NCBI RefSeq assembly: GCF_003675855.1
Contig: NZ_RCIH01000001.1
Location: 372,001-436,000, forward strand
Reading direction: 5' to 3'
DNA: 64,000 bases
Source of the DNA: Halostella salina
GTDB taxonomy: Archaea > Halobacteriota > Halobacteria > Halobacteriales > Natronoarchaeaceae
The notes beneath the pieces were generated by a model. It saw only the letters and a list, made by a program, of their open reading frames with translations, searched no databases and was not told where the DNA came from. The position numbers were made by a program, and so were the translations under genes. This document shows, in pieces, positions 13,335 to 16,451 of this stretch (positions are counted from its first letter, which is position 1; each line of letters begins with the position of its first letter).

Positions 13335-14279
13335 ATGCTGTCTCGCCTCCGCGAGCGCGCCGACGCCGCCTACGAGCGGCTGCTGGAACGCGAGGTGTCC
13401 GGTACGCCCTCCCACGTCGCCGTCATTCAGGACGGCAACCGCCGATACGCGGAAAAGCAAGGTGCGGACACGGACGACGGCTACCGCGCCGGCGCACAGA
13501 CGACCGAACGGGTTCTCGACTGGTGTTCGGATCTCGGCATCGACGAACTCACGCTGTACGCCTTCTCGACGGAGAACTTCAACCGGCCGCCGGAGCAGCA
13601 GGAGACGCTGTTCGACCTGCTGGAGGAGAAGCTGTACGAGTTCGCCGACGCCGACCGCGTCCACGAGGAGGAGGTGTGCATCCGCGCGCTCGGCGACGTG
13701 GACCGCCTGCCCGAGCGCGTGCGCGAGGCGGTCGCGTACACGGAGGACCGGACGCGGGAGTACGACGAGTTCGTGCTGAACATCGCGCTGGCCTACGGCG
13801 GCCGCGAGGAGCTGCTGTCGGCGGCCCGGAGCGTGGCGGCCGACGTCGACGCCGGCGACCTCGACCCGAACGACGTGGACGTCGAGACCGTCGAGGAGCG
13901 CCTGTACGGCCGTCCTGTCCGCGACGTGGACCTCATCATCCGGACCGGCGGCGACGAGCGGACGAGCAACTTCCTCCCGTGGCACGCCAACGGCAACGAG
14001 GCCGCCGTGTTCTTCTGTGCGCCCTACTGGCCGGAGTTCTCCCGCGTCGATTTCCTCCGGGGCATCCGGACGTACGAACACCGCGAGCGCTCGTGGCGGC
14101 GCACGCGTGCGCGACGCGGTCTCGCGCTCCTGCGAGCGCTGGGTGGCGTCGAACTCGACGAGGCGCGCAGCGTCGTCCGGCGGTTCCGCGACTCGCTCCC
14201 GAGCGGCGAGCGCTCGACCGTCGACGAAGTTGCCGACGAGGTCGCGGCCGAGGACGAGGAACTGCGGGCGGCGGACTGA
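13335..14279 (+). CDS. uppS: cis-Prenyltransferase, catalytic type (undecaprenyl diphosphate synthase family)
   Basis: 314 residues. The diphosphate-binding motif VAVIQDGNRRYAE (Asp33) is intact, as are LTLYAFSTENFNRP and the isopentenyl-diphosphate region RTGGDERTSNFLPWHANGNEAAVFF spread over residues about 205-230. The enzyme chains IPP units in cis to make the long polyprenyl (dolichyl-type) carrier for protein glycosylation. At the place where bacterial homodimeric enzymes end in RERRFGG, this protein reads RERSWRRTRARRG and continues into an 85-residue charged extension, so the RxG motif is absent. The degenerate homologue at 14399 carries that motif, which suggests a two-subunit enzyme. 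It is convergent with that gene. Confidence 0.92.
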   Translation: MLSRLRERADAAYERLLEREVSGTPSHVAVIQDGNRRYAEKQGADTDDGYRAGAQTTERVLDWCSDLGIDELTLYAFSTENFNRPPEQQETLFDLLEEKLYEFADADRVHEEEVCIRALGDVDRLPERVREAVAYTEDRTREYDEFVLNIALAYGGREELLSAARSVAADVDAGDLDPNDVDVETVEERLYGRPVRDVDLIIRTGGDERTSNFLPWHANGNEAAVFFCAPYWPEFSRVDFLRGIRTYEHRERSWRRTRARRGLALLRALGGVELDEARSVVRRFRDSLPSGERSTVDEVADEVAAEDEELRAAD

Positions 14280-14289
14280 ACGCAGTCGA

Positions 14290-14398
14290 CTAGCGGCCGA
14301 ATTTCCGTCAGTCCGCTCGCCGAAGCTCGCTCCCTGACGACGTTTGGACTACCGTCCGAACTTCCGCCGGTCCGTTGCACTCCCCGGCGGCGTTCGGC
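14290..14398 (-). repeat. Two diverged copies of the 3' end of the second cis-prenyltransferase gene
   Basis: Downstream of the gene that ends at 14399, its last bases recur at 14349 (period 50) and 14290 (period 58). Read on the minus strand, the gene ends in codons for RRFGR-stop, the first copy in RRKFGR-stop and the second in RKFGR-stop. Similarity of the outer copy to the gene end extends over about 36 bases, including tccgctcgccgaa. The unit at 14349 is a long hairpin: CCGAAC (14356-14361) and CCGCCGG (14364-14370) pair with CCGGCGG (14384-14390) and GTTCGG (14392-14397). The outer unit has GTCAG/CTGAC with weaker flanking pairing. Confidence 0.8.
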
Positions 14399-15007
14399 CT
14401 ATCGGCCGAACCGCCTGTTCCGCTCGCCGAACTCCCGGAGCGCGCGCAGGTAGTCCCGCTTCCGGAAGTCCCGCCAGTTCACGTCGGTGAAGTACAGCTC
14501 CGAGTAGACGGACTGCCAGATCATGAAATCCGAGAGCCGCTCGGCCCCGGTCTTGATCACGAGGTCCGGCTCCTCCGGGAAGACGAGTCGGTCCTCGATA
14601 TCCTCGGCCTCGATGTCGTCGGGGTCCAGGTCGCCGTCCTCGACCTCCTCGGCGAGCCCCCGCACCGCGTGCGTGAACTCGTGTTTCCCGCCGAGGCCGA
14701 TGCTCACCTGAATCGGCGCGTCGGCGGGCTCGTCGTCGTCCGGGCCGCGAACGTCGACCGGATGCGGGGCGTCGATGTCGTCGAACTGCCGCTTCAGCGT
14801 CGGGACGGCGGCCTCGTCGAGGACGCTGACGGGGACGGTGACGCGCTCGGCCCCGTACTCGAACGCCCACGAGAACGCGTCCTCCAGCGTGTCGTACGCG
14901 CCCTGTTCCAGCAGGTCGCGCTCCGTGATGACGACCGCGACGTGGTCGGGGCGCTGATAGTCGGCAAGCCGGAGGCGGGCGGCGAGATAGCGGTCGTACA
15001 GTCCCAC
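14399..15007 (-). CDS. Degenerate cis-prenyltransferase homologue, probable non-catalytic partner subunit
   Basis: 202 residues from a GTG at 15007 (the frame is open further up but without homology). The second half is clearly UppS-like: VIKTGAERLSDFMIWQSVYSELYFTDVNWRDF across residues about 157-188. The N-terminal DGNxR diphosphate motif is gone; the aligned stretch HVAVVITERDL lacks the essential Asp. The chain ends in RRFGR, an RxG motif followed by one residue, as in eukaryotic NgBR/Nus1, the non-catalytic subunit of dolichol-phosphate synthesis. Together with the catalytic gene at 13335, which lacks RxG, this suggests a heteromeric enzyme. It is divergent from the DUF92 gene with a 103 bp spacer. 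Confidence 0.85.
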   Translation of the reverse strand: MGLYDRYLAARLRLADYQRPDHVAVVITERDLLEQGAYDTLEDAFSWAFEYGAERVTVPVSVLDEAAVPTLKRQFDDIDAPHPVDVRGPDDDEPADAPIQVSIGLGGKHEFTHAVRGLAEEVEDGDLDPDDIEAEDIEDRLVFPEEPDLVIKTGAERLSDFMIWQSVYSELYFTDVNWRDFRKRDYLRALREFGERNRRFGR

Positions 15008-15110: not shown

Positions 15111-16451
15111 GTGACATCGACAGTGCGGCGAGCGGCCGGGTTCGCTGCCGTCGGGAGCATCGCGCTGGCCGCACCGCTGCTCGGGGCGGCGGCCGCGCTC
15201 CCCTTCGCCGCCGTCGCCGCACTCGCCGCCGTCGTCGACGACGGCCCCGTGTTCGACCTGTTCGCCCGGCCGGGCGACCGGGAGGAGGGCCGGCTCAACG
15301 GGCTGATCGGCTTCTCGCTCGCCGCCACCGGGCTCGGCCTCCTCTCGGCGGTCACGGCGATCCCCGCCCTGGCCTTCGTCGGGGCCGTCCTCTGCCTGTG
15401 CTACGGCAACCTCGTCGCCCAACTGTTCGGGGGCCGCTGGCCCGGCCCGTTCGCCGACGCGGTCGGCTTCGTCGGCGGCGGGACCCTCGGCTGTGGTGTC
15501 GGGATCGCCGCCGCCGCGGCGCTGGGCGGGACCGCGTCGCCGTCGCCGCCCACCGCCGTGTTTCTGGCGACCAGCGCCGCGCTGCTGGGCGCGCTGCTCC
15601 GGGCCGTCTTCTTCGAGCGTGACGACCCCCTCGTGTTGCTCTCGGTCGGCTTCCTCCTGTGGTTCCTGTGGGCGCTGACCGAACCGGTCACCGCGACGGA
15701 GGTCGGCGTCGCCCTCGCGGTGACGGTTGCGGTCGGCTACGCCTCCTACGCGCTCGACACCGCCTCCGTCTCGGGGATGCTCTCGGGCGTGTTCCTCGGC
15801 CTGCTGACGGTCGTCCTCGGCGGGATCGGCTGGTTCGCCGTCATCATCGCCTTCTTCGGTATCGGCGGCCTCTCGACGAAGTTCCGGTACGAGGAGAAGG
15901 AGCAACGCGGCGTCGCCGAGGAGAACGAGGGGGCCCGCGGCAGCGCCAACGTGTTCAGCAATGCCGCCGTGGCGCTGGCGGCCGTCCTCGGCTACGCCGC
16001 CGCCCCCTTCGAACTCGCCGTCGCCGGGGGCGTTCGCGTCGAGGCGCTCCCGTTCGTGTACGCGTTCGCGGGGTCGGTGTCGACGGCGATGAGCGACACC
16101 CTCTCCAGCGAGATCGGCGGCGTGTTCGACCGCCCGCGACTGATAACGACCCTCGAACCGGTCGATCCGGGGACCGACGGCGGCGTCACCTGGCAGGGCG
16201 AGGTGGCCGGCTTTGCCGGCGCGTCGGTGATCGCGCTCATCGCCGTCGGGCTGCTCGACACGGTCGGGACGGCCGGCGGCGGCGTCGTCCTCGTGGCGGG
16301 CGTCGCCGGGATGACCGTCGACAGCCTGCTCGGGGCGACGGTAGAGGGCGGCCGCCTCGGCAACCAGAGCGTCAACTTCCTCGCGACCCTCTCGGGGGCG
16401 GTCGTCGGGGCGGGGCTGGCGGTCGTCGCGGGTGTTCCCGCGGTCGCGTGA
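15111..16451 (+). CDS. DUF92 family integral membrane protein (TMEM19/VTE6-like)
   Basis: 446 residues from GTG at 15111, with ten or more hydrophobic segments. The DUF92 signature is FFGIGGLSTKFRYEEKEQ followed by GARGSANVFSNAAVALAAVLGY. Two later conserved stretches are AFAGSVSTAMSDTLSSEIG and AGMTVDSLLGATVEGG. Plant members (VTE6) phosphorylate phytyl phosphate, so an isoprenoid-phosphate kinase role is conceivable; the position next to two cis-prenyltransferase genes supports a polyprenyl substrate. That is inference from family and context. The stop overlaps the start of the downstream GNAT gene (GTGA). Substrate and catalytic residues cannot be read from sequence alone. Confidence 0.85.
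   Translation: MTSTVRRAAGFAAVGSIALAAPLLGAAAALPFAAVAALAAVVDDGPVFDLFARPGDREEGRLNGLIGFSLAATGLGLLSAVTAIPALAFVGAVLCLCYGNLVAQLFGGRWPGPFADAVGFVGGGTLGCGVGIAAAAALGGTASPSPPTAVFLATSAALLGALLRAVFFERDDPLVLLSVGFLLWFLWALTEPVTATEVGVALAVTVAVGYASYALDTASVSGMLSGVFLGLLTVVLGGIGWFAVIIAFFGIGGLSTKFRYEEKEQRGVAEENEGARGSANVFSNAAVALAAVLGYAAAPFELAVAGGVRVEALPFVYAFAGSVSTAMSDTLSSEIGGVFDRPRLITTLEPVDPGTDGGVTWQGEVAGFAGASVIALIAVGLLDTVGTAGGGVVLVAGVAGMTVDSLLGATVEGGRLGNQSVNFLATLSGAVVGAGLAVVAGVPAVA

Follow-up and report, generated by a model that had tools for sequence, protein, structure and literature searches.

A probable two-subunit cis-prenyltransferase of the DHDDS/NgBR kind encoded by a gene pair of Halostella salina and its relatives in the Halobacteriota

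Known cis-prenyltransferases with one and two kinds of subunit

Heteromeric cis-prenyltransferases are usually presented as eukaryotic enzymes and as a long-chain speciality (PMC7839719). In the human enzyme, the C-terminus of NgBR with its RxG motif crosses the interface into the active site of DHDDS; the rate of the complex is about 400-fold that of DHDDS by itself (PMC7573591). Without its partner, DHDDS forms homodimers of weak activity (PMC7573591; homodimers also in PMC6921004).

A two-subunit archaeal cis-prenyltransferase is already known in Methanosarcina mazei. According to PMC8131916, MM_0618 and MM_1083 were reported as a heteromeric enzyme that makes C45-50 products and is likely the glycosyl carrier synthase. 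The original report is that of Emi et al. (2019; doi 10.1016/j.bbrc.2019.09.143), here given as cited in PMC8131916 and PMC8904820, and the mention of such a methanogen enzyme in a sequence-only reading of the present locus is thereby traced to a real source. PMC6921004 lists the UPPS of Methanosarcina acetivorans, too, as part of a heteromeric complex. MM_0014 lacks RxG, yet it is an active homodimer that makes C25-40 products (PMC8131916). In our literature search, no paper described a heteromeric enzyme from haloarchaea or called the split general in the phylum, a weak negative given that subscription papers were mostly outside its coverage.

The gene pair of Halostella salina

The window analysed here is a stretch of 64,000 nucleotides from Halostella salina. 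The genome of this organism contains only two PF01255 matches, genes A and B, a convergent pair separated by 119 bp. Gene A (P0001; 13335..14279, plus strand; 314 aa; PF01255 and TIGR00055) is predicted, based on sequence and model, to encode the catalytic, DHDDS-like subunit. It matches TIGR00055 with 235.6 bits over residues 25-253 (cut-off 109.55) and PF01255 with 229.9 bits, the score of gene B being 89.9 bits (curated cut-off 27). The complete set of catalytic residues of E. coli UppS is kept in its product, and the DGNRR motif (residues 33-37, within QDGNRRYAE; 13431..13445, plus strand) would form the allylic diphosphate/Mg site. The PF01255 match ends at profile position 217, and the RER-RFG of E. 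coli UppS is replaced by RER-SWR. With DGN and the IPP-site residues intact and RxG gone, gene A has the composition of a catalytic chain of the DHDDS/Rer2 kind.

From residue 249 onwards (14079..14276, plus strand), A comprises RER-SWR and then a tail of about 60 charged, mostly helical residues, with helices predicted by the model at 237-269, 274-287 and 290-313. The A proteins of several other families lack this tail. A PDB sequence search with the C-terminal 103 residues gave weak matches to the end of the catalytic domain and none that was clear for the tail, and the VIA-align ranges on the A model end near residue 260, leaving the tail unaligned to that of DHDDS; these two results give no support to a recognisable DHDDS-type tail.

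Gene B (P0002; 14399..15007, minus strand; 202 aa, GTG start) probably encodes the non-catalytic, NgBR-like partner, as judged from the same two sources. UppS profiles match its product solely at residues ~97-202, and the PF01255 match covers profile positions 117-219, reaching the end where RxG sits. T-E-R stands at the DGN position of UppS, and the protein ends in ERNRRFGR directly before the stop codon, the terminal RFGR (residues 199-202; 14402..14413, minus strand) being RxG plus one last residue. Loss of DGN, retention of the C-terminal half and RxG at the extreme C-terminus are thus combined here as in proteins of the NgBR/Nus1 kind, and neither gene A nor gene B has DGN and RxG on one chain as the homodimeric UppS of bacteria does. 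A longer GTG-started frame for B, extending to 15355, was ruled out because homologues start at the equivalent of MGLYD. The sequence-only reading had described the gene at 13335 as keeping DGNRR and the IPP site, lacking a terminal RxG and bearing a charged tail, and the gene at 14399 as lacking DGN, keeping the C-terminal half of UppS and ending in RRFGR; each of these features is present in the sequence.

The AlphaFold2 models have a pLDDT of 89.0 for A and of 86.8 for B, the last residues of B being of low confidence. With VIA-align, the first match of the A model is the DHDDS chain 7pb1_A (Z 30.6, rmsd 2.1, 244 aligned), with some bacterial UppS within 1 of it, and the first match of the B model is the NgBR chain 6z1n_B (Z 15.8, rmsd 3.7, 178 aligned), with homodimeric enzymes within 1. 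Such model matches speak for the fold and not for the function; together with scores above the cut-off, the family fold places both proteins in PF01255.

Compared with the human enzyme (PDB 6W2L, 6Z1N, 7PB1), A resembles DHDDS as a catalytic-type chain that lacks RxG and has a C-terminal extension predicted to be helical, but the tetramerising tail of DHDDS did not align with the tail of A. Similarly, B resembles NgBR in lacking DGN, in carrying RxG at the extreme C-terminus and in its fold, but unlike NgBR it has no N-terminal transmembrane extension. The bacterial homodimers (E. coli, B. subtilis) share their fold with both proteins and their catalytic residues with A, whereas DGN and RxG, joined on one chain in these enzymes, lie on two chains in the haloarchaeal pair. 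Enzymes of the MM_0014/MA1831 type (PDB 7caq, 7vq9) are, like A, archaeal and devoid of RxG, but they represent a separate, distant lineage of homodimers with shorter products, to which A does not belong.

Division of the motifs across the phylum

Loci from throughout the phylum supplied a non-redundant collection of A and B proteins, which were aligned to residues 17-246 of E. coli UppS, as taken from the PDB alignment. The A set contains 158 rows, 157 archaeal and one bacterial (L227), and was selected with a profile threshold of 200 bits or more, not by the presence of DGN; proteins of the MM_0014 type score about 100 and hence fall outside it. The equivalents of D26, G27, N28, R30, S71, N74, R77, R194, R200, S202 and W221 are identical in all 158 rows. 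RxG, taken as R/K-x-G at the 242-244 columns, occurs in none of the 157 archaeal A proteins. The sole row with R/K at 242 plus G at 244 is L227, from a Neomarinimicrobiota bacterium that has one PF01255 gene in its genome, with DGN and RxG on the same chain.

The B proteins have the reverse composition. R242 is kept in 88 of 89 (K in the remaining one), and G244, E213 and exactly one residue beyond the RxG glycine are found in 89/89; the ends RRFGR and RRFGA are kept also in one family whose B proteins have diverged strongly (f18; L133, L134). Their DGN positions are replaced, and the equivalents of D26, N28, R30, H43, N74 and R77 are gone in nearly all 89, although single-position counts in the N-terminal half of B are approximate owing to its loose alignment. 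Given that the same division recurs phylum-wide, over 157 A proteins of archaea and 89 B proteins, chance or mis-read frames were ruled out as its origin. This division and its conservation are properties of the sequences themselves, as the folds are of the models, and catalytic residues in A only with a terminal RxG in B only is the pattern that the human cross-interface mechanism predicts.

In genus g7 (G006, G011, G027, G037, G064, G071, G096, G102), the match to B falls into two halves within a single open frame that spans roughly 250 aa or more. This suggests that the B proteins of the genus carry an insertion at about residue 90-100.

Distribution and gene arrangement

The survey covers the phylum Halobacteriota, and no claim is made on other archaeal phyla. 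B is present in all 116 sampled Halobacteria genomes, which represent 46 genera (match at E <= 1e-25), and A is listed in 115 of them; the genome without A (G071) has B only, in an assembly of about 120 contigs. Exactly two PF01255 matches are found in 110/116 Halobacteria genomes and three in five, the third being a second A in four genomes (G060, G067, G097, G104) and a divergent protein in G002. Of the 197 genomes sampled in the phylum, 195 contain a match, and in 186 the number of matches is exactly two. To judge from the sequences, the split form appears to be close to universal in the Halobacteriota. The two genomes of the 197 without any PF01255 match (G122 and G130) are drafts of family f16 that are about 91% complete.

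In the four Halobacteria genomes where one B accompanies two A-type genes (L122, L119, L121 and L120 in G060, G067, G097 and G104, respectively), RxG is missing from both A copies. This arrangement recalls yeast, in which one Nus1 is shared by two catalytic subunits. The divergent third protein of G002 (L127 / L101; C1:478925-479599) scores 103 bits and has neither DGN nor RxG in a long open frame.

A and B lie within 5 kb of each other on one contig in 87 of 115 Halobacteria genomes and are convergent in all 87; in the others they are further apart or on separate contigs. The two genes are convergent and not co-transcribed, and the lack of co-transcription counts against their encoding one enzyme.

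Just upstream of gene A and divergent from it is a gene for a cold-shock domain protein (PF00313; 13019-13213, minus strand). A gene for a DUF92 (PF01940) membrane protein (15111-16451, plus strand; 190.2 bits) adjoins gene B divergently, and a DUF92 relative is found at 62 of the 91 B loci that have at least 500 bases upstream or a match. DUF92 includes plant VTE6, a phytyl-phosphate kinase, and it is possible that the DUF92 protein is an isoprenoid-phosphate kinase acting with the A/B enzyme.

Lineages of the two chains

A maximum-likelihood tree of 92 non-eukaryotic proteins, read without an established root, places A and B each on one side of a branch (support 100/96 and 100/99). Since each forms one side of a strongly supported branch, A and B are, on their sequences, ancient paralogues whose age is at least that of the phylum; a local duplication did not give rise to them. 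The MM_0014-like proteins form a third, separate group that is strongly supported and distant from A.

This grouping also bears on the enzyme from M. mazei, which belongs to the same phylum as the haloarchaeal pair. The genome of its relative Methanosarcina sp. MSH10X1 contains exactly one protein each of the A, B and MM_0014 types, and therefore MM_0618 and MM_1083 are, by elimination in this relative, expected to be members of the A and B lineages. There are differences: in this Methanosarcina genome A and B are on different contigs, whereas the haloarchaeal genes are mostly linked and convergent; haloarchaea usually lack an enzyme of the MM_0014 type; and the haloarchaeal pair is known here from genes and models, while MM_0618/MM_1083 is a reported enzyme.

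A profile built from B aligns end to end with NUS1 (profile positions 23-212, chain positions 24-213 of 213; E 6e-12), and bacterial UppS scores higher. That the split cis-prenyltransferase is ancestral in the Halobacteriota, serves as their only general glycan-carrier synthase, and is of the kind from which eukaryotic DHDDS/NgBR descends, as opposed to an independent origin of the latter, is a tentative proposal that we consider rather less probable than its opposite.

Proposed enzyme and alternative explanations

We contend that genes A and B very probably encode one DHDDS/NgBR-like heteromeric cis-prenyltransferase. The sequence-only reading had proposed the same, and it is strengthened by motif reciprocity, co-occurrence, convergent placement, the two ancient lineages, the DHDDS and NgBR folds and the M. 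mazei parallel, all of them comparative lines of evidence. We infer a physical complex of the two proteins, along with its activity, product and role, in the following form. A would bind the allylic diphosphate and IPP, and its DGNRR site would catalyse chain elongation. A lacks the C-terminal RxG, the motif with which a subunit as a rule closes the active site of its neighbour. B, having lost the N-terminal catalytic half-site, would be unable to bind the allylic substrate; it would dimerise with A via the C-terminal half of the fold, which is conserved, and its RRFG tail would reach across the interface into the active site of A in the manner of human NgBR. The product would be a polyprenyl diphosphate, destined to become a dolichol-type sugar carrier for N-glycosylation and expected to be shorter than the product of human DHDDS/NgBR. 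Haloarchaeal N-glycans are carried on C55-C60 dolichyl phosphate. The H. salina genome encodes an AglB-type oligosaccharyltransferase (781.9 bits, above cut-off) and has three trans-prenyl synthase genes, and therefore both a use and a substrate source exist for such a carrier.

Loss of RxG is by itself no proof that A needs a partner, because MM_0014 is an active homodimer without the motif and DHDDS alone is weakly active. On these precedents, with human DHDDS forming homodimers of reduced activity, A could be a self-sufficient homodimer like MM_0014 and B an accessory, regulatory or otherwise employed protein. We regard this as improbable, given that B occurs in every sampled Halobacteria genome, that its terminal RxG is almost invariant phylum-wide and is a set of residues with a known function in the active site of a partner subunit, and that proteins of the MM_0014 type are far from A in the tree. 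A purely regulatory B would also leave the exact conservation of RxG plus one residue hard to explain.

It is much less probable still that B is an independent prenyltransferase homodimer with an unusual active site of its own. B does retain the fold and, in its C-terminal half, E213 and RxG among others, but nearly all 89 B proteins have lost the equivalents of D26, N28, R30, H43, N74 and R77, so that the allylic diphosphate/metal site would be missing. That B is a decaying, pseudogene-like duplicate is scarcely credible: it is shorter than A and, by its branch lengths, evolves faster, but its frame is open in all sampled genomes, and the conservation of its C-terminus throughout the phylum already contradicts decay.

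Implications

The survey points to use of the split form by an entire archaeal phylum, most probably to make a carrier of medium length, and this broad distribution gives the finding more interest than a single pair would have. It would also seem that databases are wrong to annotate B as an independent UppS. The B proteins, as single-domain partners free of a membrane anchor, may be of use in studying how NgBR acts, and the origin of the two-subunit design of the human enzyme would become testable.
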